Source: Pelagibacterales bacterium SAG-MED49
GTDB lineage: Bacteria > Pseudomonadota > Alphaproteobacteria > Pelagibacterales > Pelagibacteraceae
DNA length: 58,170 bases
Direction: 5' to 3'
Assembly: GCA_014653365.1 (NCBI GenBank)
Contig: JACWEQ010000005.1
Span: forward strand, 1-58,170
Below, one piece after another: positions 36,981-50,307 of this stretch; the stretch's first letter is position 1, and each line of letters opens with the position of its first letter. Below the pieces are notes generated by a model that did not search any database, was not told the DNA's origin, and saw nothing but the letters and a program-made list of their open reading frames with translations. A program made the translations under genes and the position numbers.

Positions 36981-38462
36981 TTATGAGTGGCTAATCCAAA
37001 TAGTTTTTGTCTGAAGAAACGAGTTAAGAGCTTCTGTGCCTTGGTCTCTTGAAAGTGATCCTGATTGTTTATACCCACCAAATGGAGTTTTAATATCTCC
37101 TTCTGAAAAAGTATTCACCGACACTGTTCCACAAGGTAAACTTTTAGCTAGATGAAATGCTCTATTTATATCTTGTGTAAAGACACTCGCGTGTAATCCG
37201 TATTTAGAATTACTTGCAACTTTCAAAGCATCTTCATCATTTTTTACTGTTAAAACTCCTAAAACTGGTCCAAAAATTTCCTCTTGAGCAATTGTCATAT
37301 TTTCTTTTAAACCATCAAATAAAGTGGGTTTTGCATAAAAACCTTTTTGGTTATTGTTAGACACTCCTCCTGATAAAAGTTTTGCACCCTCATCTATGCC
37401 TTTTTGAATGTATCCATCAACCATTTTTAAATGTCCTTTTGAAATCATAGATCCCATATTAGATTTTAAATCTAATGGATCCCCTACTTTTAATTTTTTA
37501 ACTTTTCTAATTACTTTATCTAAAAATTCATCTTTGACTTTTTTATGAACTATCTGTCTCATATTTGCTGAACAGTTCTGCCCACCATTCCAAAAAGCAG
37601 AATTTATTGCATTATCAATTAAATCATCATTTATTTTAGCATCCTCTAAAACTATAAATGGACTTTTTCCTCCCATCTCAAGTGCAACTGGTTTTAAATT
37701 ACTTTCACTTGCATACTTTAAAAAATAACCTCCAACTTCAGTTGAACCTGTAAAAGAAACTGCATCAACATCTTTATGGCGTCCAAGTGCTTCTCCAACA
37801 TCACCATAACCTGGAAGTACATTTAAAACTCCATCTGGAATTCCTGCTTCTTTTCCTATTCGAGCAACTCTAATTGCTGTAAGAGGTGTATCTTCTGCAG
37901 GTTTGATAATAACCGAACAACCAGCCGCAAGAGCCGGCGCCATTTTCCAAACTGCCATCATTAAAGGAAAGTTCCAAGGAACAATTCCTGCAATAACACC
38001 AATTGGCTCTTTTACAATTAAACTTGTAATCGATGGTTCAGTTGGACCAACTTTACCAAAAACTTTATCGATTAATTCTCCATACCACTGAAAATGCATA
38101 GGTGCATCATTTGCAACTTCATTAATACAATCTGCAATTAATTTTCCAGTATCTACACACTCTAAAACTGAGTTTTCGTCTCCATGTTTTCGAAGTAAAT
38201 CCGCAAACTTTAATAAAACTTCTTTTCTATGCTCTGGAGAGCTTTTAGACCAAACACCACTATTAAAAGCTTTTCTTGAAACTTTAACAGCAAAATCAAC
38301 ATCTTTATGATTGCATTTTGCAACTGTACAAAGCTTTTCACCTGTTGCAGGATTTATAGTTTCAAACTTTTTACCATCAATAGCATTTACATATTTTCCA
38401 TTAATAAATGCTCTACCTTCAAACTTTAGTTTATTTGCAATTTTTTTATAGTTTACTTGCAT
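36981..38462 (-). CDS. NAD(P)-dependent aldehyde dehydrogenase
   Basis: About 493 residues of the ALDH superfamily: VPWNFPLMMAVWKMAPALAAG, glycine motif FTGSTEVGGYF, Glu in ALEMGGKSPF, nucleophile Cys in NGGQNCSANMR, and EEIFGPVLGVL. It is closest in feel to betaine- or gamma-aminobutyraldehyde-type dehydrogenases, but the aldehyde cannot be fixed. ATG at 38462 is preferred over an in-frame TTG three codons upstream. It lies 57 bp downstream of a winged-helix regulator gene on the same strand, which may control it. Confidence 0.92.
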   Translation of the reverse strand: MQVNYKKIANKLKFEGRAFINGKYVNAIDGKKFETINPATGEKLCTVAKCNHKDVDFAVKVSRKAFNSGVWSKSSPEHRKEVLLKFADLLRKHGDENSVLECVDTGKLIADCINEVANDAPMHFQWYGELIDKVFGKVGPTEPSITSLIVKEPIGVIAGIVPWNFPLMMAVWKMAPALAAGCSVIIKPAEDTPLTAIRVARIGKEAGIPDGVLNVLPGYGDVGEALGRHKDVDAVSFTGSTEVGGYFLKYASESNLKPVALEMGGKSPFIVLEDAKINDDLIDNAINSAFWNGGQNCSANMRQIVHKKVKDEFLDKVIRKVKKLKVGDPLDLKSNMGSMISKGHLKMVDGYIQKGIDEGAKLLSGGVSNNNQKGFYAKPTLFDGLKENMTIAQEEIFGPVLGVLTVKNDEDALKVASNSKYGLHASVFTQDINRAFHLAKSLPCGTVSVNTFSEGDIKTPFGGYKQSGSLSRDQGTEALNSFLQTKTIWISHS

Positions 38463-38519
38463 AATTATCAAAACTTATTGTTTTTAAAACAAAGAAGCAA
38501 GTTTTAATTAATTCAGTCT

Positions 38520-38993
38520 TTATTTTAAATTTAGAAGTTGATCTAAGCTTTTATGTTTTTTTAATTGTTGAAGAAATTTTCCAAGAGTAATTATCTCTTT
38601 TTCTGCAAATGGCTTCATAACTGATTCAATTTTATCAGTTGGTAAAAGACCTTGTTTTGTTGAATGGGTTATAAATTTCTTTTTTTTTAAAGCTTCTATT
38701 TTTCTTCTAACCGTCTCTTTTGGTAAATCCATGATATTCGAAACTGCAAAGATGGTTAACTTTTTTGAGTTATAAATTTGTTCATCTTTTTTTGATCTTG
38801 TTAGCTCCCAAACAGAATCCCAATTCAATCCTTCAGTAGTATTATTTCTTAGATAATAAGCTCCTATACAAGAGATGATCATGAACGAGTCGTAATCAAT
38901 TCCAATCATTTTTTTTGAGTCTCTATACTGTCTGCAACGAAATTTTATTAAATGAAATAAAGTCTCACTATAAGCTTCTATTTTTTTTTTCAT
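38520..38993 (-). CDS. Small winged-helix transcriptional regulator
   Basis: The 157-residue product has a helical N-terminus and a winged helix-turn-helix at about 78-115 (TIFAVSNIMDLPKETVRRKIEALKKKKFI). It resembles one half of the 334-residue regulator at 23308-24312, sharing the recognition-helix motif PKE-S/T-VRRK-V/I-E. It is encoded just upstream of the aldehyde dehydrogenase and is a candidate local regulator. Confidence 0.72.
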   Translation of the reverse strand: MKKKIEAYSETLFHLIKFRCRQYRDSKKMIGIDYDSFMIISCIGAYYLRNNTTEGLNWDSVWELTRSKKDEQIYNSKKLTIFAVSNIMDLPKETVRRKIEALKKKKFITHSTKQGLLPTDKIESVMKPFAEKEIITLGKFLQQLKKHKSLDQLLNLK

Positions 38994-39051
38994 TAAATAA
39001 TAAATTAGACTATTTAGCCCAATAAATATATTTTATATCTTATGTTTGTGG

Positions 39052-39462
39052 TTATTCTGGGTTATCTGTAAGTGTTTTAATTTCCAGTATATTTTCGTTA
39101 GGATCTTTAACAAAAAAAGTTTCCTGTTCATATTTAGTGCCTTTAAACCTTAAATAAGGTTCATCGTAATACTTTGCCCCATTTTCTTTAAGTCTATTTT
39201 TTAGAGCATCAAAATCTTTTCTTGATAAATGAACACCAAAGTGAGGAACAGAAACGTTACCCATATCTACATCATGTCTTTCACTATCTAATTTATGATC
39301 GCTTGCATGAAGAGTTAATTCATTTCCCCAAAAATCAACATCTGCCCATTCTTGAGCTGAATTATCTAATCTGCATCCTAAAGTTTCGCTGTAAAATTTT
39401 TTTGCTACCTCTAAATCACCACACGGTATTGCTAAATGAAAACAGTTAGTGTTTTTGTACAT
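39052..39462 (-). CDS. VOC-family (glyoxalase/dioxygenase-like) protein
   Basis: The 136-residue product has two beta-alpha-beta-beta-beta modules. Candidate metal ligands are in FHLAIPCGD near the N-terminus, HFGVHLSRKDF in the middle and NILEIKTL at the end. The family includes glyoxalase I, extradiol dioxygenases and resistance proteins, so the reaction is not fixed. It is divergent from cysE across about 70 bp. Confidence 0.82.
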   Translation of the reverse strand: MYKNTNCFHLAIPCGDLEVAKKFYSETLGCRLDNSAQEWADVDFWGNELTLHASDHKLDSERHDVDMGNVSVPHFGVHLSRKDFDALKNRLKENGAKYYDEPYLRFKGTKYEQETFFVKDPNENILEIKTLTDNPE

Positions 39463-39532
39463 AATTTCTCCTTTAATTACTAAATATAGTCACTATATAA
39501 CTCATAACTTTTATTCAAGCTACTAAAAATAT

Positions 39533-40111
39533 ATGGACAATTTCTTACAATCTATAATTGATCGAGATCCTGCTGCTAAATCTAAACTAAGTTTAGTCTT
39601 AACTTACCCAGGAGTTAAAGCAGTTTTTTTTCATAGAATTGCTAATTTTTTTAGTACTGCAAAATTTGATTTGATTGCTAGAATTATTTCTCAATTTTCA
39701 AGATTCTTAACTGGAATAGAAATACACCCAAAAGCAAAAATTGGTAAAAATTTATTTATTGATCATGGTATGGGGGTTGTGATTGGAGAAACTTCTGAGA
39801 TTGGAGATAACGTTACAATTTATCATATGGCGACATTAGGAGGAATAGCACCAAGTATTAATTCTAATGATCAACGTAATATAAAGAGGCACCCAACTAT
39901 TGGTGATGAAGCTGTAATTGGTTCTGGTGCTCAAGTATTAGGTCCTGTTACAGTTGGAAGATGTGCAAAAATTGGAGCTAATGCAGTAGTTACAAAAGAT
40001 GTTCCAGAAAAAGCTGTTATGGTTGGTATTCCTGCTAAAAATGTTGGTATTGCTGATAGTGAGTTCAAACCTTATGGTATTACACCAGATAGTGATACAA
40101 AATCAAATTAA
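39533..40111 (+). CDS. cysE: Serine O-acetyltransferase
   Basis: The 192-residue product has an N-terminal helical part ([27 protein letters not shown]) and a left-handed beta helix of hexapeptide repeats with [35 protein letters not shown], the active-site His region, and [13 protein letters not shown]. It makes O-acetylserine, the acceptor for sulfide. The stop overlaps the start of cysK (TAATG), so the two steps of cysteine synthesis are coupled. Confidence 0.94.
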
Positions 40112-41112
40112 TGAGTAATATTAGAAATGATTTTATTTCAGGAATTGGAAACACTCCTTTAATAAAATTAAGAGCGGCATCAGAAATTACTGGATGTAAT
40201 ATTTATGGAAAAGCTGAATTTTTAAATCCAGGCGGCTCTGTTAAAGACAGAGCGGCACTTGCTCTAATTAAAGATGCTCAAGAAAAAAAATTAATCTCTA
40301 AGGGTGGAACAGTTGTTGAAGGAACAGCTGGTAATACTGGAATTGGTTTGGGACTTTTGGGAAATTCGTTAGGGTATAAAACTATTATCGTAATGAATGA
40401 TAATCAAACTCAAGAAAAAAAAGATTTACTAAGAAATTTAGGTGCAGAATTAAGATTGGTTCCTGCAAAACCATATCAAGATGACAATAACTACATCAAA
40501 GTTGCATCAAGACTTGCTGAAGAATTAAAACCCTCAAATAATAATGGGGTTATTTGGGCTAACCAATTTGATAACACTGCAAATGCTAGAGGGCATTATG
40601 AAGGAACAGGACAAGAAATTTGGGAACAAACAGATGGAAAGGTTGATGGGTTTGTTTGTTCGTCTGGAACTGGTGGAACAATTTCAGGAGTAAGTAATGC
40701 TCTTAAAGAAAAGAATAAAGATATAAAGATTTATTTATCTGATCCTAAAGGATCAGCACTTTGTAATTATATAAAGAATGGAGAATTAAAGTCTGAGGGT
40801 GGTTCAATTACAGAGGGGATTGGATCAAGTAGGATCACAAAAAATTTTGGAGAGGCTAAAATTGATAATGCTTATTCAATTGATGACCATGAATCTCTTC
40901 CAATATTATATGATTTAATTCAAAATGAAGGTTTAAGTTTAGGCACTAGCTGTGGGGTTAATATTGCAGGCGCTATAAGACTAGGTAAGGAATTGGGACC
41001 TGGAAAAACTATAGTGACCATACTTTGTGACAGAAGTGATAAATATTCAACAAAAATGTTTAATAAAAAATTCCTTGAAGAAAAAGGTTTGCCCTTCCCT
41101 AAATGGCTTTAG
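40111..41112 (+). CDS. cysK: Cysteine synthase (O-acetylserine sulfhydrylase)
   Basis: The 333-residue PLP enzyme of fold type II has GNTPLIKLR near the N-terminus, the PLP lysine in NPGGSVKDRAAL, GTAGNTGIGLGL, the phosphate loop SSGTGGTISGVS, and EGLSLGTSCGVN. It converts O-acetylserine and sulfide to cysteine. It sits directly after cysE. Its last 4 bp overlap the end of a convergent membrane-protein gene. Confidence 0.93.
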   Translation: MSNIRNDFISGIGNTPLIKLRAASEITGCNIYGKAEFLNPGGSVKDRAALALIKDAQEKKLISKGGTVVEGTAGNTGIGLGLLGNSLGYKTIIVMNDNQTQEKKDLLRNLGAELRLVPAKPYQDDNNYIKVASRLAEELKPSNNNGVIWANQFDNTANARGHYEGTGQEIWEQTDGKVDGFVCSSGTGGTISGVSNALKEKNKDIKIYLSDPKGSALCNYIKNGELKSEGGSITEGIGSSRITKNFGEAKIDNAYSIDDHESLPILYDLIQNEGLSLGTSCGVNIAGAIRLGKELGPGKTIVTILCDRSDKYSTKMFNKKFLEEKGLPFPKWL

Positions 41113-41522
41113 ATATAAATTTTATCTGACAATCCGTAAATAAGAATTGCACTTAATATTGTAAACACCAATGGTGCAATAATTGCCTCATTTGAATCGT
41201 TCATAACACCTGTTTTATCAATTTTAACTGAGTAAGTGTTAACTAGAAAAACACAAATGTTTTGAATAAAAATCAAATTAAAGAATGCCCAAGTTCCCTC
41301 AACACCATTTGGTCTTACAAACATTATATAAAGAGCCATTAAAAATGATCCTAGAAATATTGCTCCAGCCATTCTCATAATCGTAGCAGCAGAGACATCT
41401 ATTTGAAACTTTTCTCTAAATTTTTTGTTTCCAATTATCATTTGATAAGCGTAAGCAACTACACCAATAAAATGTATTAAAAAAATAATTAAATAAAAAA
41501 TTCCATTAAATTTATCGATCAT
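41109..41522 (-). CDS. Hypothetical four-helix membrane protein
   Basis: The 137-residue product has four hydrophobic segments (about 7-28, 46-65, 77-94, 115-133) and little else. It has the small-integral-membrane-protein look of many uncharacterised alphaproteobacterial families. It converges on cysK, overlapping by 4 bp. No family name is recognised. Confidence 0.68.
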   Translation of the reverse strand: MIDKFNGIFYLIIFLIHFIGVVAYAYQMIIGNKKFREKFQIDVSAATIMRMAGAIFLGSFLMALYIMFVRPNGVEGTWAFFNLIFIQNICVFLVNTYSVKIDKTGVMNDSNEAIIAPLVFTILSAILIYGLSDKIYI

Positions 41523-41679
41523 TATTAAATTATAACATAAATAAAATTTAATAGAAATTTAAACTCAAGAGAACCCATTATAGGTTTTAAAAACCCCATT
41601 TCAGATAAATTTCAATTTTTAATTGAATGAATTTTTTGCATACTTGATATTCTAATATGACGCACGACCTTTTAACAAA

Positions 41680-41702
41680 TGTGTAACACTATAGTTAACA
41701 CA
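41680..41702 (+). promoter_or_regulatory. Inverted repeat upstream of the small-protein operon (candidate operator)
   Basis: TGTGTAAC (41680-41687), 6 bp, GTTAACACA (41694-41702): the arms are complementary except for one extra base. It lies about 30 bp before the first gene of the operon and contains a TATAGT box at 41690-41695, so a bound protein would cover a potential -10 element. The gene-free stretch 41523-41728 holds nothing else I can support. Confidence 0.42.
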
Positions 41703-41728
41703 TAACATCTATAACTAAAAAGGGGTCA

Positions 41729-42040
41729 ATGAAAGTAATTTACACAAGAACAATGAGAGTAAAAGATGATGGCTTAGGAAAAGCTATGGAAATTGGAAAA
41801 GGTTTAGCGTCTGTTAGAAAAAAACATTACCCTAACCATGAAGTTTATTTTTCATTTCAAATGGGTGGAGATCCTAGAACAATAAGAGAAACTTTAATTG
41901 GAACTATGTTTGAAGGTGATAATGAAGCTGATGCAAATATGTCAGCTGATCCTGAATATCAAAAACTTCAAGAACAATTAAAAGATGTTGCAATAGAAGG
42001 AACTATTGAAGATGAGATAAGACCTATCTTTAGTGAATAG
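41729..42040 (+). CDS. Small dimeric alpha/beta-barrel-like protein, first gene of the small-protein operon
   Basis: The 103-residue product follows a beta-alpha-beta-beta-alpha-beta pattern (strand KVIYTRTMRV; helix with GKAMEIGKGLASVRKKHYP; strands EVYFSFQMG and ETLIGTMF; helix PEYQKLQEQLKDVA; strand GTIEDEIRPIF). This fits the ferredoxin-like dimeric alpha/beta-barrel group that includes ABM, NIPSNAP and EthD types. No catalytic residues are evident. A ribosome-binding site AAAAAGGGGT precedes the ATG. The fold is inferred from pattern only. Confidence 0.72.
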   Translation: MKVIYTRTMRVKDDGLGKAMEIGKGLASVRKKHYPNHEVYFSFQMGGDPRTIRETLIGTMFEGDNEADANMSADPEYQKLQEQLKDVAIEGTIEDEIRPIFSE

Positions 42041-42059
42041 ATAAATTTAAGGAGATAAC

Positions 42060-42329
42060 GTGGTAAAAATAGTTGGAAGCTTTGAAGTAAATGATTGGGT
42101 ACATTGGAAAAAAACATTCGATGCTCATTCAGAGGCTAGAGAAAAAGCTAATATCAAGTCAATTTACGTTGGCAATGAATTAGAAAACAATAATAAAGTT
42201 CACATTGTAATGGAAACGCCTGAAGTGGATACAATGCAAAAATTTATGCAGGAACCACTAAATCAGGAATTAATCAAACAATCAGGTCACAAACAAGAGA
42301 CAACCATAATGGTTGCTTGCTCAGACTAA
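42060..42329 (+). CDS. Small dimeric alpha/beta-barrel-like protein
   Basis: 89 residues starting at GTG (42060) after the strong ribosome-binding site AAGGAGATAAC. The pattern is beta (VKIVGSFEV), alpha (WVHWKKTFDAHSEAREKAN), beta, beta (KVHIVMETP), alpha (MQKFMQEPLNQELIKQS), beta (TTIMVACSD). It resembles DUF3764-like or ABM-like small proteins. Cytoplasmic; function unknown. Second of at least five proteins of this general fold in the operon. Confidence 0.72.
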   Translation: MVKIVGSFEVNDWVHWKKTFDAHSEAREKANIKSIYVGNELENNNKVHIVMETPEVDTMQKFMQEPLNQELIKQSGHKQETTIMVACSD

Positions 42330-42352
42330 TAAAAGAAAAGAAAGGAATAAAA

Positions 42353-42841
42353 ATGAAAACAATAATATCTACAATAATTTTAAGTTTAATATCAACTCTA
42401 TCTTTTGCTGATGGACATACATCAGGAAAATTTAATGCAAGCGGTATGGGTGCATGGGAAGTGAATGCAATGAATGCTGGTAAAGGTGATATGGCAATTA
42501 CTTATGATGGTATAGCTGGTTTATCAGATGATACTCCTGATAGTATATTTCATAAATCAACTATGCACTGTATTGGCGGGTTAACATTACAAGCTGGTAA
42601 ATTTACTGATGAAACTGGTATGTGTAGATTTGATCTAATTGATGGTGAAAGTGTTTATATGAAGTATGAAGGAGAAGGAACTGGTGGATCAGGTGGATCA
42701 GGTACATTTACAATTATAAAAGGAACTGGAAAATATGAAAATATAACTGGAACTGGTTTTTCAAGTAGACAAAATTTAATGACTAAAGCACCAGGATTTT
42801 CAACTACAATGAACCAAATGTCTGGTGAATATAAATATTAA
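42353..42841 (+). CDS. Secreted beta-rich small protein
   Basis: 162 residues from ATG 42353, preceded by AAAGGAAT; an upstream ATG in frame (42317) lies inside the previous gene and lacks the signal. It has a clear signal peptide (MKTIISTIILSLISTLSFA-DG). The mature part is Gly/Ser/Thr-rich and beta-rich, with GTFTIIKGTGKYENITGTGF, a pattern like dirigent/allene-oxide-cyclase-type barrels, and one Cys pair (about residues 64 and 81). It is one of two exported products in an operon otherwise cytoplasmic. The function is not recognised. Confidence 0.72.
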   Translation: MKTIISTIILSLISTLSFADGHTSGKFNASGMGAWEVNAMNAGKGDMAITYDGIAGLSDDTPDSIFHKSTMHCIGGLTLQAGKFTDETGMCRFDLIDGESVYMKYEGEGTGGSGGSGTFTIIKGTGKYENITGTGFSSRQNLMTKAPGFSTTMNQMSGEYKY

Positions 42842-42859
42842 ATAATAGGAGAATAAATT

Positions 42860-43168
42860 ATGAGTGTGATGGTAATATTTTCTCCAAAGTCAATGACTGC
42901 AGAACAATATGATGCAATTCTTAAAAAAGAAAGAGAACTTGGTGTTCATCCTGTAAAGGGATTAAAGTTTGAAGTTTGTTTTGGAGAAGGAAATCAAATG
43001 AAAGTTTCTGTAGTGTACGACTCAATGGAAGCTTTCGAAGAACATGGCAAAAAACTTGCTCCGATAGTTGAAGAAATGGGCTTTGATGTGGGACAACCCG
43101 AAGTTTTTAAAGTTCATAATACAATTCACAATACAACTAACGAAACATACAGATACCATTATGAATAA
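42860..43168 (+). CDS. Small dimeric alpha/beta-barrel-like protein
   Basis: The 102-residue product has strand SVMVIFSPKSM, helix AEQYDAILKKERELG, strand GLKFEVCFGEGN, strand MKVSVVYDS, helix MEAFEEHGKKLAPIVEEMG and the ending QPEVFKVHNTI. This matches a widespread uncharacterised family of small alpha/beta-barrel proteins that end in a PVHN-like motif. Its last codons overlap the start of the following secreted protein by 8 bp, so the two are translationally coupled. Confidence 0.74.
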   Translation: MSVMVIFSPKSMTAEQYDAILKKERELGVHPVKGLKFEVCFGEGNQMKVSVVYDSMEAFEEHGKKLAPIVEEMGFDVGQPEVFKVHNTIHNTTNETYRYHYE

Positions 43169-43535
43169 AATAATATTGATAATTATTAGTGTGTTTTTTC
43201 CATATACTGCTTACGCAGACATGAGTGATGCTAATAAAACTAAAGCTTGGGATTGTAGTGGTATCTACATGGCTAATTACTTTTTGCCATCTGGTGAAAC
43301 GTTTGAATATAGTATGAAAGAAAAATCTATGGCCTCAGTAAAAGTTTTAAAAGCTTATGCTCTTGAAACTGGAGTTCCTGAAAAAAATTGGGATGAAGGA
43401 GTAAATAAAGCAGTAGATAAATATTATGGATCAAAATATGACAAAGTGAAAACAGAGGAATGTCATGCTTTTTTAGAAGAATTGATCCCTAATGGAAAAG
43501 AAAGAGTAAATAAAGTTGTTCAAACATTGTATTAA
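43161..43535 (+). CDS. Small secreted protein, function unknown
   Basis: 124 residues from ATG 43161. A longer frame from 43068 is rejected because the signal peptide (MNKIILIIISVFFPYTAYA-D) starts here. The mature part is helical, with two cysteines (CSGIYM and EECHAF) and the pattern of small periplasmic helical proteins. It is coupled to the preceding gene by an 8-bp overlap. No family is recognised. Confidence 0.7.
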   Translation: MNKIILIIISVFFPYTAYADMSDANKTKAWDCSGIYMANYFLPSGETFEYSMKEKSMASVKVLKAYALETGVPEKNWDEGVNKAVDKYYGSKYDKVKTEECHAFLEELIPNGKERVNKVVQTLY

Positions 43536-43547
43536 AAAGGAGGAATG

Positions 43548-43898
43548 ATGGCGTCAGTTGAAGTAAAAAGTTTTAATAATCCAGATGAAGCTAATTCAAA
43601 CTTTAATAATGCACAAATAGACATTGTTAAAGTTGGAGATCAAAGAGTAATGAGATTAAAATTACAACCTGGCTGGAAATGGTCAAAAGATATCAAACCT
43701 ACAGTTGGTACAGATAGCTGCAAAGCAAAACATATAGGTGTGATAGTTTCAGGTGCAGTTTGTGCAAAACATGATGATGGAACAGAATTAACTTATAAAG
43801 CAGGTGATGCATATTCAATAGAACCTGGTCATGATGGTTGGGTAGTCGGAGATGAGCCAGTAGAAGTTTATGAGTTTCATGGGAAATGGGGTGAATAA
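43548..43898 (+). CDS. Small cupin-domain protein
   Basis: About 116 residues. The cupin core reads LQPGWKWSKDIKP, then CKAKHIGVIVSGAV, GTELTYKAGDAYSIEPGHDGWVVGDEPVEVYEF. His residues in KHIG and PGHDGW could bind metal, though the classic HxH is incomplete. The second of two adjacent ATGs (43545, 43548) has better spacing to AGGAGG. Many stand-alone cupins of this kind are annotated as hypothetical. Confidence 0.82.
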   Translation: MASVEVKSFNNPDEANSNFNNAQIDIVKVGDQRVMRLKLQPGWKWSKDIKPTVGTDSCKAKHIGVIVSGAVCAKHDDGTELTYKAGDAYSIEPGHDGWVVGDEPVEVYEFHGKWGE

Positions 43899-43931
43899 AA
43901 AAATAATAACAATAAAATCAAAGGAGAAAAA

Positions 43932-44222
43932 ATGGAAAAAGAAATGTTGGCTATCTTAAGTCTTAAAGAAGGAAAGTTTGATACATTCATGGGTTGGATG
44001 GCATCTGAGGAAGGAATGGGTGTTAGAAAAAGTGTAGCCTATCCAGAAAAAACTATACCAGGAATTAAACCTGACAAAAGTGGTGTAATGTTCAAAGTTT
44101 CAGTTCACAATGAAGAAGGTATGAAAGAATTTGTTGCTGGAAAAAATCCAGTTGCAAAAGCAATTTATGAAGAATGTGTAGCAAGTGTACATCTTTATGA
44201 ATTATCAAAAGTAAATGTTTAA
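43932..44222 (+). CDS. Small dimeric alpha/beta-barrel-like protein
   Basis: The 96-residue product has strand MLAILSLKEG, helix FDTFMGWMASEEGMG, strands around SVAYPEKT and GVMFKVSV, helix GMKEFVAGKNPVAKAIYEECV, and strand VHLYELSKV. It is similar in layout to the 89-residue protein at 42060. Ribosome-binding site AAAGGAG precedes the ATG. Function unknown. Confidence 0.7.
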   Translation: MEKEMLAILSLKEGKFDTFMGWMASEEGMGVRKSVAYPEKTIPGIKPDKSGVMFKVSVHNEEGMKEFVAGKNPVAKAIYEECVASVHLYELSKVNV

Positions 44223-44237
44223 TAAAGGAGAAAAAGT

Positions 44238-44528
44238 ATGAAAAACTACATGGTAACGCACACTTTTAAATCTAAAGAAGCTAAAGCTAAAATGATAGAA
44301 GTTACTGGTTCAATGTCGATGGAAGATATGACCAAAGCAATGACAAGTGAAAGTGCAAAATGTCAAATGAGCTGGAATACACCAGGTGATAACTTAACAA
44401 TGTTTTGTTGGTGGAAAGGAACTGATCCAGATGCAATTAATAAACAATTAGAATCTATGAATGATTTTTTTGAGCCTCATAAATTTGTTGAGTGTACAGA
44501 TGATATTATAGATTTTAACGCTAACTAA
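44238..44528 (+). CDS. Small dimeric alpha/beta-barrel-like protein
   Basis: The 96-residue product has strand KNYMVTHTF, helix KEAKAKMIEVTG, SMEDMTKAM, strands AKCQMSWNTP and NLTMFCWWKG, helix PDAINKQLESMNDF and terminal strand. It resembles DUF4242-like small barrel proteins. Two cysteines and a Trp pair (FCWWKG) stand out. Ribosome-binding site AAAGGAG. Confidence 0.7.
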   Translation: MKNYMVTHTFKSKEAKAKMIEVTGSMSMEDMTKAMTSESAKCQMSWNTPGDNLTMFCWWKGTDPDAINKQLESMNDFFEPHKFVECTDDIIDFNAN

Positions 44529-44543
44529 AAAAAGGAAATAATA

Positions 44544-44927
44544 ATGGAAGCGAAAGAAATAGTAAAAAAAGCCTACGAGGCTTTTAGTAAAGGTGACATG
44601 GAAACAATGTTTAATGACTTGGTTCATGATGATTGTACTTGGATTTTTCCAGGTGAAGTAGGTAAACACCCTTTATCAGGTATTCACAAAGGAAAACAAG
44701 CAATGATGGAAACTTTTCAAAAAATTCCAGGGGCTTGGGATAATTTTCAAGTCATTCCAGGAGAGATGATCTCAGAGAACAATAAAGTATTTGTTAAGTG
44801 TGAAGGAAAAGCAAGCGGTATGAGTACAATGTTTGGACATTTTTTTGAAGTTGCTGATAATAATAAAATTTCAACAATGATAACATACGACGATACACTT
44901 AGTATGTTCAATGCAATGAAGAAATAA
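44544..44927 (+). CDS. NTF2-like (SnoaL-type) protein
   Basis: The 127-residue product has the SnoaL pattern: N-terminal helices EIVKKAYEAFSKGDMETMFNDL, DDCTWIFPGEVG, GIHKGKQAMMETF, then curved beta strands with VFVKCEGKASG and FFEVADNNKIS. Such proteins are small pocketed enzymes or ligand binders (isomerases, cyclases, hydrolases). Substrate unknown. First of three NTF2-like genes in the operon. Confidence 0.8.
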   Translation: MEAKEIVKKAYEAFSKGDMETMFNDLVHDDCTWIFPGEVGKHPLSGIHKGKQAMMETFQKIPGAWDNFQVIPGEMISENNKVFVKCEGKASGMSTMFGHFFEVADNNKISTMITYDDTLSMFNAMKK

Positions 44928-44935
44928 GAAACAAT

Positions 44936-45268
44936 ATGTCAATTTTAAAAAAACTAAATAAAGTAATCATGGAGAAGGATGGTGCAGCAGCAGCTGAGAT
45001 AATCCATGATGATTACAAGAGGTATTCTCATCTTCAAGGAAACTATACTGAAAGTGGAAAAACAGGTATGATTGAAGCAATTAATAAAGGTTTCATGAAA
45101 GTTGATAAATATAGGATTTTATATGAAAATGATGAAATAGGTTTTGATCATTCTATTGTTACTTACGCCGAGGATGGAAACAAAGAAGCTTTAATGTGCT
45201 ATTGGAAATTTAAAGATGGCAAAATTATAGAATTAGAAACTGGAGCTACAAAATTACCACAGCAGTAA
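44936..45268 (+). CDS. NTF2-like protein, paralogue A
   Basis: The 110-residue product has MSILKKLNKVIMEKDGAAAAEIIHDDY, then IRVLYENDEIG-like (YRILYENDEIGFDHS) and KIIELETGATK at the end. It is clearly paralogous to the protein at 45672-45992. The ribosome-binding site is weak (AAGAAAC), and the start is 8 bp after the previous stop. Confidence 0.78.
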   Translation: MSILKKLNKVIMEKDGAAAAEIIHDDYKRYSHLQGNYTESGKTGMIEAINKGFMKVDKYRILYENDEIGFDHSIVTYAEDGNKEALMCYWKFKDGKIIELETGATKLPQQ

Positions 45269-45290
45269 TTAATTAAAGGAGGAGATAAAG

Positions 45291-45650
45291 ATGAAACTAT
45301 TAGTTCATTCAATACAAGGACCAGAAAATGCTGTGAATGGAGTATTTCCCATAGGAATAGCTTCAATGGCAGCTGAAGCAGGTCATGAAGTAAATATATT
45401 TTTAGCAGGTAACGCTGTTTCTTTAATGAAAACTGAAATAGTAGAAAATATGTCAGCTATTGGAGTTGGGAAGCTAAGTGATTATATGAAAGTCATAAAA
45501 GATAAAGGAATTAAAATTCATTTATCTACAGGAAACTGTAAAGCAAGAGGTATTACAGAAGATGATATTAAAGATAAAAATGGAGTAATGTCAGGACCTC
45601 CAGGATTATTGAAACTTGTAGAAGAAGCTGAGAAAGTCCTGTCATATTAA
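45291..45650 (+). CDS. DsrE/DsrF-like protein
   Basis: The 119-residue product has LLVHSIQGPENAVNGVFPIGIASMAAEAGHEVNIFLAGNAV and a late Cys in IHLSTGNCKARGI, the conserved position for the reactive Cys of DsrE/YchN-type proteins, which carry sulfane sulfur or bind small ligands. A strong ribosome-binding site AAAGGAGGAG precedes it. It is the only obvious redox or sulfur-linked member of the operon. Confidence 0.82.
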   Translation: MKLLVHSIQGPENAVNGVFPIGIASMAAEAGHEVNIFLAGNAVSLMKTEIVENMSAIGVGKLSDYMKVIKDKGIKIHLSTGNCKARGITEDDIKDKNGVMSGPPGLLKLVEEAEKVLSY

Positions 45651-45671
45651 ACAAAAAAAAGGAAGATAACT

Positions 45672-45992
45672 ATGTCAATATTAGCAAAGTATAATGCGGC
45701 TATGGAAGCTAAAGATGAAGCTGCAATGAATGAAATTTTACATGATGATTATAAGTTTACTATGCATGCATCAGGTAATGTTTTAGGCAAAGCAGATGTA
45801 ATCAAGTGGGCGATGAGTGGTGACATTAAAAGAGATAAAATAAGAGTTCTTTTTGAAAATGATGAAATTGGCGTTGAACACGCATTTGTTACATTTGATG
45901 ACGGAAATACTGAGGCTGTAATGGCTGTCTTTAAATATCAAGATGGAAAAATGATTTCTCTTGAAACAGGAGCGACCAAGATACCTAAATAA
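45672..45992 (+). CDS. NTF2-like protein, paralogue B
   Basis: The 106-residue product shares with the protein at 44936 the starts MSIL-K-N and E-KD-AA, the motif HDDYK, FENDEIG, and the ending LETGATKIPK. The duplication flanks the DsrE-like gene. Ribosome-binding site AAAAGGAAG. Confidence 0.78.
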   Translation: MSILAKYNAAMEAKDEAAMNEILHDDYKFTMHASGNVLGKADVIKWAMSGDIKRDKIRVLFENDEIGVEHAFVTFDDGNTEAVMAVFKYQDGKMISLETGATKIPK

Positions 45993-46030
45993 TTATATAT
46001 ATTTAGCGAGATTTAATTTAATATTATTAA

Positions 46031-46366
46031 ATGAGTCTCGCTACTTCATATGCTATTTTAATCCTAGCAGTTATTCTAGGAGTAACTTCAAATAGTTTTG
46101 CAAAAAGTGCTGAGGGTTTTACCCTTGTCTTTCCAAGTATCATCACTGGAATAACAATCGTTGCATGTATGTATGCGCTATCAATGGTGATGAAAAACAT
46201 TCCTATGGGTATAACTTACGCATCATTTGCAGGTTTAACAATTATTGCAACTGTAATAGTTGGGATAATTAGATTTAATCAAATGCCTAATTTATATTCA
46301 TTGATAGGTTTGGCATTAATAATTGTTGGTGTCGTAATGGTTAATCTTTTAGGAAGAGTAGATTAG
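46031..46366 (+). CDS. SMR-family-like four-helix membrane protein lacking the TM1 glutamate
   Basis: The 111-residue product has four membrane helices and the SMR signatures KSAEGFT after TM1, AYALS-like ACMYALSMVMKNIPMGITYA, and LIGLALIIVGVVMVNLLGR. The residue that aligns with the essential Glu14 of EmrE is Gly in VILGVTS; there is no acidic residue in TM1. This argues against ordinary proton-coupled drug export. It starts 38 bp after the last NTF2-like gene and is probably the last gene of the operon. Confidence 0.8.
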   Translation: MSLATSYAILILAVILGVTSNSFAKSAEGFTLVFPSIITGITIVACMYALSMVMKNIPMGITYASFAGLTIIATVIVGIIRFNQMPNLYSLIGLALIIVGVVMVNLLGRVD

Positions 46367-46367
46367 C

Positions 46368-46712
46368 TTAATAACTATCAGGTAATTTATGGTTACCATC
46401 ATCTTGTAAAATAATTTCAAATTTCTCAACAACATTAGATAAATCAAGTGAAGAAAATAAATGAGGAAACATATTACCATCTGAGGCTTGCTCCCATACT
46501 AAATTATCAAGATTTATAGTTTTTACTTTTAGTAAAATAAGATCATTTTGATTTTTATAAAATTTTTTTAGAGTTCCCCTAACTTGCTCTTCCTCAGAAA
46601 AATAGATGTAACCGTCCTCTAAGTCCTTTTTTGTACCCTTAAATTCACTTTTATCTTTAATAACAACCCATTCAATTTTAGCTAATATCTTATAAATAAA
46701 CTTGAAATTCAT
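46368..46712 (-). CDS. DUF952-family protein
   Basis: The 114-residue product has the family features IYKILAKIEWVV, DGYIYFSEEEQVRGTLKKFYKNQNDLILL, LVWEQASDGNMFPHLFSSLDLSNV. DUF952 proteins are small cytoplasmic proteins, proposed to relate to ADP-ribose chemistry in some reports, with no agreed function. Converges on the SMR-like gene with 1 bp between the stops. Confidence 0.82.
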   Translation of the reverse strand: MNFKFIYKILAKIEWVVIKDKSEFKGTKKDLEDGYIYFSEEEQVRGTLKKFYKNQNDLILLKVKTINLDNLVWEQASDGNMFPHLFSSLDLSNVVEKFEIILQDDGNHKLPDSY

Positions 46713-46750
46713 AAATGATTTATAATCAAGCTTAAGGAATAATAAAGTAA

Positions 46751-46774
46751 AACTTCCCCTTTTCAGGGGAAGTT
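46751..46774 (-). terminator. Hairpin, likely terminator of the hisN-DUF924 transcript
   Basis: Stem AACTTCCCC (46751-46759) with GGGGAAGTT (46766-46774), 6-nt loop. On the minus strand it is followed by TTTACTTTATT. It lies about 120 bp beyond the DUF924 stop. The rest of 46713-46896 shows only a short GA run (46790-46801) and AT-rich spacer. Confidence 0.5.
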
Positions 46775-46896
46775 AGAACTAACTTTTATAGAGAGAGAGA
46801 AATATAAGTTAATTTTTATACAATTACTCTTTAACTATCTTTTTAAGAATTAAAAATTGATATTACATCAATGCGGGTATGCAATTTATGAATAAA

Positions 46897-47460
46897 TTAC
46901 CAAGTAGAGTTGGGTTCATTTAAAAAAGCTAATTCCTCGTCTGTAGATTGTCTTTCTAAAATTTTGTTTCTATGGGGATATCTATGAAAAAGTCTTATAG
47001 CTTTTGTATTATCTTTCCAAAACTTTTTAATCTGAACATAGTCTTCGTGTTCTCTTAAATACTTATTAAGTAAATAATATGCCATGTCATGATCGGTAAT
47101 TTCTTCACTATGAATAAGAGGTAAGATCATAAAAAATCTTTGACTTTCATTCATTGCTTCAAGATAGCCCGCATATACTGCATCGTTTACAATTAGTCTT
47201 GTTTTGTGATCTTGTGCAAAAGTTTTTTTATCATTTCTAAACATATTTCTTGAAAATTGATCAAAGAGAATAACTAAAGCTAAAGCGCTCATTGGTTGAT
47301 CTTGCCAATCATCATATTCATTTTGACTTGCAAGCTCATAGTCGTTTAAAAATCTATCTTTAATCATTTTATCTAACGCAGGATCTTTTTTAAATCTTTT
47401 GTCAGCAGGAGTTTCTTTAAACCAAAAATCTAAAATTTCTTGAGCTTTATCTGGTATCAT
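46897..47460 (-). CDS. DUF924-family protein
   Basis: The 187-residue helical protein has the family signature EILDFWFKETPADKRF, then ALVILFDQFSRNMFRN, and HSEEITDHD. DUF924 proteins are cytoplasmic tetratricopeptide-like helical proteins without a known role. The start overlaps the stop of the upstream hisN-like gene by 4 bp. Confidence 0.9.
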   Translation of the reverse strand: MIPDKAQEILDFWFKETPADKRFKKDPALDKMIKDRFLNDYELASQNEYDDWQDQPMSALALVILFDQFSRNMFRNDKKTFAQDHKTRLIVNDAVYAGYLEAMNESQRFFMILPLIHSEEITDHDMAYYLLNKYLREHEDYVQIKKFWKDNTKAIRLFHRYPHRNKILERQSTDEELAFLNEPNSTW

Positions 47461-48269
47461 TTTGAAACTGGTTTTAACAATTTTAGAAATTTATTATGAA
47501 TAGTTTTATTAGATGACACCAAAATATTTCCAGCATTTATTGCGTCTCTATTATCCCATGTAGAAATATATCCACCAGCTGCTTTAATAATTGGTATCAA
47601 TGGGTGTATATCCCAAATCTTATTTGAACATTGAATTACCACATCAACTCTTCCTTCTGCTAAATGAGAATAACTTAGAGCATCACTACAAGGAAATTGC
47701 ATTAAACTTAATATTTGAGGAATTTTTTTTTGTTTGTCAAGAGATAGCCAACCATGAAATGCTGCTGAAACTTTAACGTCTTTAAATATAGCTTTCTTGT
47801 TTACAGAAATTTTTTTTCTTTTTCCATTATGAACCACGTAAGCAATTTTATCTGAAAAATTAATATAATATTTTTTAAGGATTGGAAAATTTGCTAATCC
47901 TAAAATTGGTCTCCCTTTGTAGTTTAATGATATTAAATTGCTCCATGTTGGGTTTCCAATTACAAATGATCTTGTTCCATCAATAGGATCAATTACCCAT
48001 GTAAAATGACTCTTTGATTTTTTATGACCGAATTCTTCACCTATAACTTGATGGGCTGGAAACTTTTTTTTTATTTTTAATCTAATAAATTTCTCAAAAG
48101 CCTTATCGGATGTTGTTACTGGGTCATATCCTTTTCCTTTGAGTTTATTGGAGATTTTGAAGGTTTTATTTAATTTAGAATAATAAAACCTTGTCAATTC
48201 TTTTGCTAACTTATTTAAAAAATTAGCATAAATAGGGTAATTTTTTAAATTAAACTGGTCCACATTCAA
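47457..48269 (-). CDS. hisN: Inositol monophosphatase-family phosphatase (histidinol-phosphatase type)
   Basis: The 270-residue product has the metal-dependent phosphatase motifs: VTTSDKAFEKFIR, GEEFG, WVIDPIDGTRSFVIGNPTW and a late WDIHPLIPIIKAAGG. The GTRSF variant is typical of HisN-type enzymes that dephosphorylate histidinol phosphate, although inositol or PAP phosphatases cannot be fully excluded. It forms an operon with the DUF924 gene and is divergent from the dioxygenase gene. Confidence 0.85.
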   Translation of the reverse strand: MNVDQFNLKNYPIYANFLNKLAKELTRFYYSKLNKTFKISNKLKGKGYDPVTTSDKAFEKFIRLKIKKKFPAHQVIGEEFGHKKSKSHFTWVIDPIDGTRSFVIGNPTWSNLISLNYKGRPILGLANFPILKKYYINFSDKIAYVVHNGKRKKISVNKKAIFKDVKVSAAFHGWLSLDKQKKIPQILSLMQFPCSDALSYSHLAEGRVDVVIQCSNKIWDIHPLIPIIKAAGGYISTWDNRDAINAGNILVSSNKTIHNKFLKLLKPVSK

Positions 48270-48331
48270 CTCTTACTATTTTATTTATGTTGAATAAAGT
48301 TAAATTTTAAATAATTCTTGAATAAAAAAGT

Positions 48332-49435
48332 ATGAAAATTGAACTCAACGACAACAAAGTTTATTTTAATAATGGTTCTTTAAAAAAAGAGATACATCCC
48401 TTTTGGTTAAGAGAAAGAGTAGATGGAGAAGAATTTTTAGACAAAGGCACACAACAAAGACTTTTTGATCCAACTTCATTAGATAATGAAATATGTATTA
48501 ATAAAGTAAATATAAAAGAGGAGTATTTAGAAATAGATTTTAATGATGGTGTTAAATCAAAAATAGATATTAATAAGCTTGCAGTAGAATATTATAATGA
48601 AGATATTGTTATAAAATCTATTCCTAAAATAAAATGGGACTCAACTCTTAAAGAAGTTAAAAACTTTAAATACAAGGACAACTTTTTTGAAAGTGAAGAA
48701 ATGCATGACCTACTTGTTTCTTTTTACAAATATGGATTTGTGATAATAAAAAATATTCCCACAGATAATAATTTTATAGTGAAATTTGCCAATTCAATAG
48801 GAAGTGTTAGACGAACTAATTTTGGTGAATTTTTTAATGTTAAGTCTAAATCAGATCCAAATGATCTAGCCTATACATCTCTAGGTTTAGCTCCTCATAC
48901 CGATAATCCTTATCGAAATCCTGTCCCATGTATTCAGTTACTACACTGTATTGAAAGTGAAGTATCTGGTGGATTGTCAACATTAGTAGATGGCTATACT
49001 GTTACTGAAGATTTAAAAAGTGAAAATCCAAATTTTTATAAAATTTTATCAGAAGTAAAAGTAAGATTTAAATTTATTGATAAAGATGTTGTTCTAGAAG
49101 ATTGGTCTGAGTTAATAAAACTTAATGATGACAAAACGTTTAAACAAGTAAGGTTTAGTCCAAGATTAGATTATGTGCCAATGCTAGATAAAGAAAAATT
49201 AGATCTATATTACAAAGCCCGAAAAAAATTATCTAAAATGTATAACTCAGATAAATATAGAATTGAATTCAAACTTGTTCCAAAAGATTTAATGATGATG
49301 GATAATTATAGGTTGCTTCATGGCAGAACTGCTTACGAAGCAAAAGAAGGTAATAGATTTTTACAAGGATGTTATATTGACTATGATAGTACTGAGGGGA
49401 AACTAAGACATCTAAAAAGAAAATTTAACTTATAA
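48332..49435 (+). CDS. Gamma-butyrobetaine dioxygenase-like Fe(II)/2-oxoglutarate oxygenase
   Basis: The 367-residue product has the two-domain layout of gamma-butyrobetaine and trimethyllysine hydroxylases: an N-terminal DUF971-like domain (HPFWLRERVDG) and a TauD-like catalytic domain with His189 and Asp191 (APHTDNP), distal His330 in MMDNYRLLHGRTAYE, and Arg342 for 2-oxoglutarate. The Zn-binding cysteines of the classic N-domain are not seen. It would hydroxylate a quaternary-ammonium or related substrate, plausible in a cell that uses such compounds, but no carnitine genes are adjacent. Confidence 0.85.
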   Translation: MKIELNDNKVYFNNGSLKKEIHPFWLRERVDGEEFLDKGTQQRLFDPTSLDNEICINKVNIKEEYLEIDFNDGVKSKIDINKLAVEYYNEDIVIKSIPKIKWDSTLKEVKNFKYKDNFFESEEMHDLLVSFYKYGFVIIKNIPTDNNFIVKFANSIGSVRRTNFGEFFNVKSKSDPNDLAYTSLGLAPHTDNPYRNPVPCIQLLHCIESEVSGGLSTLVDGYTVTEDLKSENPNFYKILSEVKVRFKFIDKDVVLEDWSELIKLNDDKTFKQVRFSPRLDYVPMLDKEKLDLYYKARKKLSKMYNSDKYRIEFKLVPKDLMMMDNYRLLHGRTAYEAKEGNRFLQGCYIDYDSTEGKLRHLKRKFNL

Positions 49436-49437
49436 GT

Positions 49438-50307
49438 TTATTTATTTTTATTAATATTTTCTATTTCTTTATATAGGGCACTATGATCATCATTGGAGTT
49501 TCCTTGATCAGCTAATGATTTAAACATTTCTTTAATCAAATTTGAAATTGGCAGTTTAGTCTTAAAATCTTCTGCACATTCTAAAATGTTATTCATGTCT
49601 TTTAGGTGAGTTGAGACTTTTCCTTTTGGTGAAAAATCTTTATTAATCATTCTTTTTCCATGATTTTGAAGAATTTTTCCGTCTGCAAACCCTCCTGATA
49701 AAGCTTTGATAAATTTATTTGCATCCACACCTGCTTTTTCACATAAAGTAATAGCTTCTGCTACAGCACCAATTGTTACCCCAACAATGATTTGGTTTGC
49801 AAGTTTGGAAACCTGGCCACTACCAATAGGACCAACTAAAGTTGGATTGCCCATAATCTTTAAGGTATCAAAAGCTCCATCAAACACATTTTGGTCACCA
49901 CCAACCATTATAGCTAAGCTTCCCTCTTCTGCTCCTATTGTTCCACCTGAAACTGGTGCATCTAAAAAATGAATATTTCTATCTTTTAATAACTTACCGT
50001 ATTGAATTGCAATCTTTGGTTTAATAGAAGACATATCAATTACAGTAGATGAGTTTTTTAAATTATTTAAAAATTCCTGATTACCTAAAACTTTTTCAAC
50101 TGCTTCATCATCTGTTAGCATTGTTATAACAATATCAGCCTCTTTGACTGCTTCACCTAAAGAGTTGGCTATGATTGCTCCAAGTTTTTCAAGAGGGTTT
50201 GCTTTTTCTAGAGTTCTACTAAAAACTTTTAAATTTAATTTTTCATTAATTAGGTTTTTAGCCATTGGGTAACCCATAAGACCCGTACCTATAAAAGCTA
50301 TTTTCAT
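49438..50307 (-). CDS. 3-hydroxyisobutyrate/2-hydroxy-3-oxopropionate dehydrogenase family protein
   Basis: The 289-residue beta-hydroxyacid dehydrogenase has N-terminal NAD(P) motif IAFIGTGLMGYPMAKNL, VITMLTDDEAV, DAPVSGGTIGAEEGSLAIMVGG and the catalytic Lys in GSGQVSKLANQI. It oxidises or reduces 3-hydroxyacids or tartronate semialdehyde. The stop lies 2 bp from the convergent dioxygenase stop. The substrate is not determined. Confidence 0.9.
   Translation of the reverse strand: MKIAFIGTGLMGYPMAKNLINEKLNLKVFSRTLEKANPLEKLGAIIANSLGEAVKEADIVITMLTDDEAVEKVLGNQEFLNNLKNSSTVIDMSSIKPKIAIQYGKLLKDRNIHFLDAPVSGGTIGAEEGSLAIMVGGDQNVFDGAFDTLKIMGNPTLVGPIGSGQVSKLANQIIVGVTIGAVAEAITLCEKAGVDANKFIKALSGGFADGKILQNHGKRMINKDFSPKGKVSTHLKDMNNILECAEDFKTKLPISNLIKEMFKSLADQGNSNDDHSALYKEIENINKNK

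Follow-up and report, generated by a model that had tools for sequence, protein, structure and literature searches.

Small-protein genes in varying combinations at a fixed site behind satA-cysK in SAR11 bacteria

Few cell types on Earth are as abundant as SAR11 bacteria, whose genome has been held up as minimal and conserved. Hypervariable regions (HVRs) and flexible islands are known in these genomes, and passages of four reports describe genes for surface structures, transport, phosphate or purine functions, or genes of unknown function, within them (PMC2217521, PMC7318151, PMC7771536, PMC11898729). Here, we analyzed a stretch of 58,170 nucleotides from Pelagibacterales bacterium SAG-MED49 (contig JACWEQ010000005.1; hereafter 'the window'), taken from a genome of 1.17 Mb in 38 contigs, and compared an array of small genes just 3' of satA and cysK with the same site in related strains. 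The site proved to be fixed and the pool limited to about 22 gene families, with variable content, exchange of some of the genes and one block transfer. We interpret the array as a mosaic flexible SAR11 island encoding interchangeable, small-molecule-handling proteins, a reading to which we assign a probability of roughly 0.55.

The closest described systems are HVR1-4 of 'Ca. Pelagibacter' and other marine flexible islands, which, in the parts of the reports consulted, share with this locus a fixed site, conserved flanks, variable content and recombination (PMC2217521, PMC7318151, PMC11898729). These islands are described as carrying lipopolysaccharide/O-chain, transport/secretion, phosphate or purine genes or unknowns, whereas the locus studied here is a single-strand array of genes for proteins of about 100 amino acids (aa), drawn from one limited pool. 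The island fGI1 of 'Ca. Actinomarinales' is alike in that, in the sections consulted, small gene cassettes replace parts of it rather than the whole island being swapped; it differs in using tRNA genes as insertion targets and in its envelope polysaccharide content (PMC7771536), whereas the site in the window has no tRNA gene (the only one in the window lies at 2574-2650) and its content is small proteins. The main text of PMC2217521 contains no word beginning with 'cysteine', and the open-licence literature searched yielded no description of the locus and its families in SAR11. We thus rate the kind of locus as known, namely a flexible island, and its form, a small-protein pool at cysK, as apparently undescribed.

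A fixed site and a limited gene pool

Using cysK as the query, matches at E 1e-100 were found in 123 of 197 genomes of the family, and we fetched 43 of the 45 other same-genus matches, 17 loci from other genera and 36 cupin-centred stretches. Including the window, 68 stretches carry cysK, and 51 of these belong to the window's genus. The island comparison set comprises 49 of the 51; the remaining two are a locus at a contig end (L108) and that of genome G166 (L078), whose block is relocated (L227). Genes in relatives were called with a purpose-written caller, which will have misplaced some starts and miscalled some short genes, and island content was recounted independently of it by running profiles on stop-to-stop frames.

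In 49 of the 51 same-genus loci, satA-cysK precedes a small-gene array, usually ending in an SMR gene before reversed flank genes. The same array was not seen in the 17 loci from other genera, some of which keep G, tm, L or DUF2798 nearby (gene letters as listed below). Together, the 49 islands hold 502 genes with a median length of 107 aa, 463 of which fall into 22 families, a partly circular figure. The pool consists of A-M, tm, GYD, DUF1330, DSBA-like, cupredoxin, DUF2798, cupin2, ABM2 and a 68-aa protein; domain names follow Pfam, with GYD below the cut-off and ABM2 without a Pfam match, and cupin2 and ABM2 are our own labels. Excluding tm, 431 of 433 pool genes lie on one strand, and the recount gave 441 matches on the + strand versus three on the - strand. 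Genes are tightly packed, with a median gap of 15 nucleotides (nt; 5th-95th percentile, -1 to 129).

Content varied strongly between strains. We counted 43 different content sets in the 49 islands (42 in the recount), and the mean content Jaccard index was 0.72 at cysK identities of at least 97%, compared to 0.33 at 78-84% (0.75 and 0.35 in the recount). Accounting for the presence of 19 families on a tree of satA and cysK, with events summed over families, required at least 128 gains or losses. At the lower extreme, the near-complete genome L080 carries only two SMR genes and a 69-aa open reading frame (ORF) at this site, and the L081 island is likewise very short. Gene order is a bias rather than a rule: 93 of 126 family pairs are invariant and 33 were found both ways, with a mean majority of 0.937. 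A preliminary description of this DNA, made from the window sequence, had named a lack of conserved order in relatives as an argument against a coherent system, which thus applies to the minority of pairs. Members differ in how closely they are tied to the site; a DSBA-like gene is present in 19 of 49 islands, and GYD is not island-specific, having a copy in 11 of 12 genomes, nearly all outside the island.

The window's own island and its flanks comprise the following features:

39533..40111, + strand: satA, serine acetyltransferase-like (hexapeptide; Pfam Hexapep), left flank, in 49/49 islands
40111..41112, + strand: cysK-like PALP enzyme (Pfam PALP), left anchor of the island and query for fetching the locus in relatives
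41109..41522, - strand: tm gene, 137-aa putative membrane protein, in 30/49 islands (17 copies forward, 13 reverse)
41523..41728, + strand: leader upstream of the operon, contains TTTTGCATA, with TGTAACACTATAGTTA at 41682-41697
41729..42040, + strand: A, 103 aa, predicted NIPSNAP/ABM-type alpha/beta barrel (AlphaFold and Foldseek)
42060..42329, + strand: B, 89 aa, DUF3764 (Pfam 39.3 bits, cut-off 24)
42353..42841 (ATG at 42353), + strand: C, 162 aa, probably secreted, two invariant Cys and a GTG[KR]Y motif
42860..43168, + strand: D, 102 aa, without significant family, in 2/49 islands
43161..43535 (ATG at 43161), + strand: E, 124 aa, probably secreted, predicted all-helical, invariant Cys pair, in 32/49 islands
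43545..43898, + strand: F, 117 aa, cupin-like (Cupin_2 20.6 bits versus cut-off 27.2, E 3.6e-4)
43932..44222, + strand: G, 96 aa, weak DUF1330 profile similarity, in 34/49 islands
44238..44528, + strand: H, 96 aa, weak SCO4226-like similarity (E 0.024, below cut-off), in 26/49 islands
44544..44927, + strand: I, 127 aa, SnoaL-like NTF2 fold (SnoaL_2 42.6 bits versus cut-off 27, E 9.5e-11)
44936..45268, + strand: J, 110 aa, paralogue of L (54% identical), in 10/49 islands
45291..45650, + strand: K, 119 aa, DsrE-like (DsrE 38.7 bits, cut-off 22.7)
45672..45992, + strand: L, 106 aa (DUF4440 32.4 bits versus cut-off 25.2, SnoaL_2 27.4 versus 27), in 44/49 islands
46031..46366, + strand: M, 111 aa, SMR-like membrane protein at the right island end (SMR, PF00893, 59.5 bits versus cut-off 23.7), in 47/49 islands
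46368..49435: right flank with DUF952 (-), DUF924 (-), IMPase-like P (-) and TauD-like Q (+), named by Pfam except P, which was named by sequence only

The 13 ORFs at 41729-46366 all lie on the + strand, encode 89-162 aa and are separated by short gaps, with D and E overlapping. Since all 13 score positively for coding potential (from 12.4 to 53.8, with start bonuses) and homologues of every gene except K were present in the fetched relatives, these ORFs are not chance occurrences, and the small same-strand cluster noted in the preliminary description is real. Its size range of 89-127 aa holds for 12 genes, C being longer, and the ribosome-binding sites it had pointed to are present, as an AGG/GGA type, in ten genes but absent from E (as judged from the bare sequence), J and M. 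tm, which is reversed in the window, is a + strand island member in other strains. Synteny of the right flank holds in relatives, but DUF952 and DUF924 are missing or replaced in some strains. The DNA repeats within 41000-47000 (20 of 30 repeat families inspected) are short matches or reflect the paralogy of J and L.

Exchange between strains, relocation and the cysK leader

We next asked how closely each gene follows the history of its genomic surroundings. Correlating identities with those of satA and cysK gave r values of 0.74 and 0.66 for the flanking genes Q and P, and low values for a series of pool genes: A 0.15, B 0.23, tm 0.27, E 0.33, J/L 0.34, G 0.35, I 0.35 and F 0.43. Third codon positions, which are hardly touched by protein selection, provide a firmer test of exchange. 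Pairs were counted as excess when their identity lay at least 15 points above that of cysK, which was the case for 28 of 147 pairs in A, 15/120 in I, 19/314 in H, 9/161 in C, 51/922 in J/L, 5/107 in B and 21/540 in G. Core and flank controls, in turn, showed hardly any such pairs (satA 1/1150, P 2/848, Q 3/653), and neither did 100-codon windows of satA, P and Q, with 60 of 9371 windows in excess. The likeness of A, I, H, G and J/L to distant strains at third codon positions indicates that some pool genes were exchanged singly. Single-gene exchange is therefore seen in some families, not in all. Gene-wise differences are also evident in the window's nearest relative, L073, in which A, B, H and L are 97%, 100%, 96% and 99% identical to the window's copies, but G only 45%.

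Beyond single genes, a whole block was found away from its usual site in one genome, G166. Here, G-H-A-E-tm-L-DSBA-DUF2798 lie at 662-665 kb of the 1,320,649-base genome, whose own cysK is at 342 kb. The block is preceded by a 55-codon ORF ending in the cysK C-terminus and by a copy of the leader palindrome described below. Over 150 nt, this tail shares 89% identity with the cysK of G012 (L085), the closest match among nine compared; with the genome's own cysK it shares 75% over 195 nt. The simplest reading for this single genome would be that the block came from a different lineage and that the breakpoint fell within cysK. The relocated block adjoins sugar-nucleotide-type genes; this label, like the SDR-like and UmuDC-like names used below, was assigned from sequence.

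Parts of the set also cluster elsewhere. In family f2 of the same order, for which 15 stretches were fetched via F, I lies beside or near F in 12 stretches, often together with GYD, ABM-like genes and B, at another locus that is often next to an SDR-like gene. In other orders, at least two pool families occur within about 2 kb in four of 15 stretches (13 genomes): L221 (G591) has I twice plus B, with ABM and ydhR-type neighbours; L222 has I and GYD; L241 has B and J/L; and L245 (G494) has B, DUF1330, J/L and GYD. The small-genome Alphaproteobacteria behind L221 and L245 thus have their own clusters of SnoaL, DUF3764, DUF1330, GYD and ABM proteins. The points made earlier that the genes are real, are kept together and in several cases encode small pocket folds are supported, and the recurrence at another locus and in some lineages speaks for a shared function. 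F additionally occurs without other pool genes in 14 other same-genus stretches (L033-L039, L059-L065), between UmuDC-like genes and a GFA-domain gene, the latter identified by Pfam on one member. L033 has a glyoxalase-like gene in between.

A conserved leader, CGCATAyCAGnnnTGTAAyAAAAnnrTTACATTT, lies between cysK and the first island gene. Allowing up to three mismatches, it immediately follows cysK in 26 of 49 islands and is absent from the rest of those stretches, and TGTAA anchors it in 29 of the 36 islands without a reversed tm, in a few cases poorly. In the 1.39 Mb of fetched sequence, we counted 22 copies of the strict palindrome, each lying between cysK and either E or I, compared to 3.6 occurrences expected in mononucleotide shuffles, related strains being counted apart. 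Its arms co-vary, from TGTAAC/GTTACA to TGTAAT/ATTACA, and the hairpin of 6-7 base pairs is followed by a T run. When scanning 81 genomes with the leader pattern, we found exactly one site in each of 31 (for example, G012:C1:356767-356800), and a reversed control pattern had no site in any of the 81. All eight sites with a known cysK position were directly behind cysK.

The window's clade, in which tm is reversed, carries only a divergent form. The window's TGTAACACTATAGTTA at 41682-41697 is the only exact match, and the three matches with at most one mismatch compare to 2.2 expected by chance; the region at 41523..41728 may, on this weak evidence, be a diverged form of the cysK leader conserved in other strains. 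As to function, the leader may serve as an operator/promoter, or it may terminate cysK. That it is a leader of the island is favoured by the conservation of a block preceding the hairpin and by the retention of the element in G166. In the window itself, consensus promoters at 39400-46900 were fewer than in shuffles (27 versus 38.2), terminator-like sites in the same interval numbered six versus 2.1 expected, with the single + strand one inside cysK, and Rfam returned nothing above the gathering score in 37000-50000, so no riboswitch was recognised.

Weighing the explanations

In the interpretation we favour, a mosaic flexible island, transcription of the array would start from the cysK-proximal leader, and homologous recombination within flanking and adjacent genes would bring about the shuffling, with no need of an integrase or attC-sized spacing. 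Integrase or tRNA genes are common, though not universal, at the boundaries of flexible islands; Pfam recognised no integrase among the genes of 39533-49435 other than P. Less firmly, the proteins, including the DUF3764, DsrE, secreted and membrane members, may each work on their own as small catalysts or binders, isomerising, oxidising or sequestering reactive organics, with carbonyl, quinone or polyketide-like small molecules as candidate targets, and each strain might keep the subset suited to its chemical surroundings. SnoaL cyclase-like, NIPSNAP/ABM, DUF1330, GYD, cupin and DSBA folds typically belong to isomerases, monooxygenases and binders that make little use of cofactors. It is from these fold classes, together with the GFA and glyoxalase-like neighbours of F elsewhere, that a small-molecule role is suggested. 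High recombination reported for SAR11 in passages of PMC7542561 is consistent with homologous recombination as the engine.

Several observations weigh against this interpretation. Correlations with satA and cysK are higher for M (0.57), GYD (0.61), H (0.63), C (0.65), DSBA (0.83) and cupredoxin (0.98), with cupin2 and the 68-aa gene also within 0.57-0.98, and values are lowered without any exchange for B, C, E, G, J/L, GYD and DUF2798, whose clusters mix members less than 50% identical. Third-codon excess is near flank level in M (1/1058), cupredoxin (0/56), DUF1330 (2/235), tm (4/426), E (6/488), DSBA (2/159), GYD (3/224) and F (3/148), two flanks are themselves unclean in this test (O, 9/145; cluster 54, 2/19 pairs), and pairwise comparisons between strains are not independent. 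The 463 of 502 figure is partly circular because the pool families were derived from the same 49 islands. In the other orders, 11 of the 15 stretches have the anchor gene without a pool neighbour within about 2 kb. The leader pattern has no site in 50 of the 81 genomes, the window's included, and the element might serve to end cysK transcription instead of acting as a promoter. Finally, what the pool proteins would do is deduced from their fold class.

A more specific and more tentative version, which we would sooner doubt than adopt, is an integrase-free combinatorial operon, in which a single-copy cysK leader drives a population-wide pool of one-domain 'pocket' proteins sampled by recombination. 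If true, a streamlined lineage with few regulators would gain, at the level of strains, a repertoire directed against, or making use of, reactive small molecules in seawater. More broadly, the island seems closer to a set of exchangeable chemical tools than to a single fixed pathway, and suggests that chemistry-related functions, besides surface structures, are kept variable in streamlined genomes. Natural strain differences thereby offer a handle on DUF3764, DUF1330, GYD, SnoaL-like and other uncharacterised small families.

Among the alternatives, a neutral recombination hot spot, which gathers small mobile genes that are each mildly useful and have no common function, fares best, yet we consider it improbable. 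SAR11 recombines widely according to parts of PMC7542561, single genes are exchanged in some families, and small genes are easily carried whole. A hot spot of this kind is hard to reconcile with the origin of most island genes from only 22 families (subject to the circularity mentioned above), with overlapping family sets clustering at the f2 locus and in four of the 15 other-order stretches, and with the invariant polar residues kept in the F, I, J/L and G alignments.

We judge it more doubtful still that the set performs one multi-step conversion or passes intermediates from protein to protein in a relay, as the preliminary description had proposed. Tight spacing on one strand, repeated small pocket folds and the clustering of parts of the set elsewhere would fit such a system. 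However, combinations differ in nearly every strain, which makes an ordered pathway unlikely: there are almost as many content sets as islands, very short versions survive (L080, which is nearly empty, and L081), K is present in one of 150 genomes, and G is 45% identical in the closest relative. In addition, no large or cofactor-binding enzyme was recognised among the 13 genes. A fixed conversion or relay is not supported.

A service to cysteine or reduced-sulfur metabolism is very unlikely. The array lies behind satA-cysK in all 49 islands, in a set that was itself selected by cysK, K is DsrE-like, and a DSBA-like member recurs among the islands. Yet K is unique to the window's genome among the 150, its TusB and DsrE2 scores are far below the cut-offs, and both family f2 and G166 have the set at a distance from an intact cysK; moreover, cysK and cysE of HTCC1062 were not upregulated under sulfur limitation in the data consulted from PMC5069961.

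Still less credible is an anti-phage or surface-variation locus whose diversity is maintained by predation. In the relevant passage of PMC2217521, viral predation is proposed to drive HVR2, a surface island of SAR11, but the ten proteins scanned (all of the 13 except J, K and M) gave no PADLOC or PHROG match, relatives of F or K in viral contigs were unconfirmed, and no glycosyltransferase or surface gene was recognised among the 13. A phage origin was also considered and rejected, as a distant blastn search with 40000-47500 found nothing among 50,697 phage records and none of the pattern matches in viral contigs (24 for K, four for the F alignment) was confirmed as a relative.

An integron-type cassette array, which this locus resembles in its small, variable, same-strand genes and its fixed end with a conserved palindrome, can practically be dismissed, given a median gap too short for attC between most genes (judged by spacing, against the size of attC), a leader found at most once per genome, and attC not having been found with SAR11 HVRs in the portion of PMC2217521 consulted.

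Individual proteins

The fold guesses of the preliminary description fared unevenly. For the five proposed alpha/beta barrels, structure prediction supports A, and B is assigned to DUF3764, whereas barrel folds for D, G and H are unproven. The AlphaFold monomer model of A has a predicted local distance difference test (pLDDT) value of 89, and its best Foldseek match is 5k9f (E 3.7e-6, template modelling score 0.77). A is thus a predicted NIPSNAP/ABM-type alpha/beta barrel, with a modelled fold also like those of LsrG and SnoaB; identity to natural NIPSNAP/ABM/LsrG-type proteins is about 8-18%. A PDB profile match of A to FICD (E 0.012) was judged to be chance. By hhalign, similarity to DUF1330 is weak for both G (probability 29% over 30 columns) and B (60%), and there was no support for homology between G and H or between H and GYD. 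PDB profile searches with G, H, J/L and C returned nothing convincing.

The N-termini of C and E, described earlier as secreted proteins, are signal-peptide-like when read by eye. C has no Pfam match above the cut-off. E is modelled as all-helical (AlphaFold pLDDT 85.8), without a Foldseek match (best E 1.2) and with a VIA-align Z of at best 6.1, within the stated noise for helical models.

The proposed NTF2/SnoaL folds were borne out, for I and L by Pfam and for J by its identity to L. I resembles SnoaL-like polyketide cyclases of the NTF2 type by profile and Pfam SnoaL_2, matching TerC in the PDB profiles (E 2.4e-5) and, weakly, IdmH (0.0037); Pfam recognised no polyketide synthase among the window's 13 genes. 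K likewise lies above the DsrE cut-off, as had been guessed, but outside both the TusB (13.6 bits, cut-off 49.2) and DsrE2 (13.1, cut-off 210) equivalogs, and no second DsrE protein was found among the 13 genes by Pfam.

The supposed cupin, F, matches Cupin_2, but below the cut-off. F is present in 46 of the 150 genomes searched, its own included, whereas K is found solely in the window's own genome. At least 554 loci with F relatives were confirmed, and 76 of the 80 best named loci carry the titles Pelagibacteraceae, Pelagibacterales or Pelagibacter. In L057 (G099:C34:7889-8182), the F frame contains three internal stops and is an apparent pseudogene.

Lastly, the SMR assignment of M holds at the level of the sequence family, with a match to EmrE at E 2.8e-12, but not at the position corresponding to E14 of EmrE, a residue with a role in proton-coupled drug export. 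This position is V or I in all 61 M copies covering it, the other 11 of 72 being gapped there, so EmrE-type proton-coupled drug export by M is unlikely. The island-end SMR-like proteins are possibly a non-EmrE type of SMR. The 72 copies of M across the islands are often paired with a DUF2798 gene.

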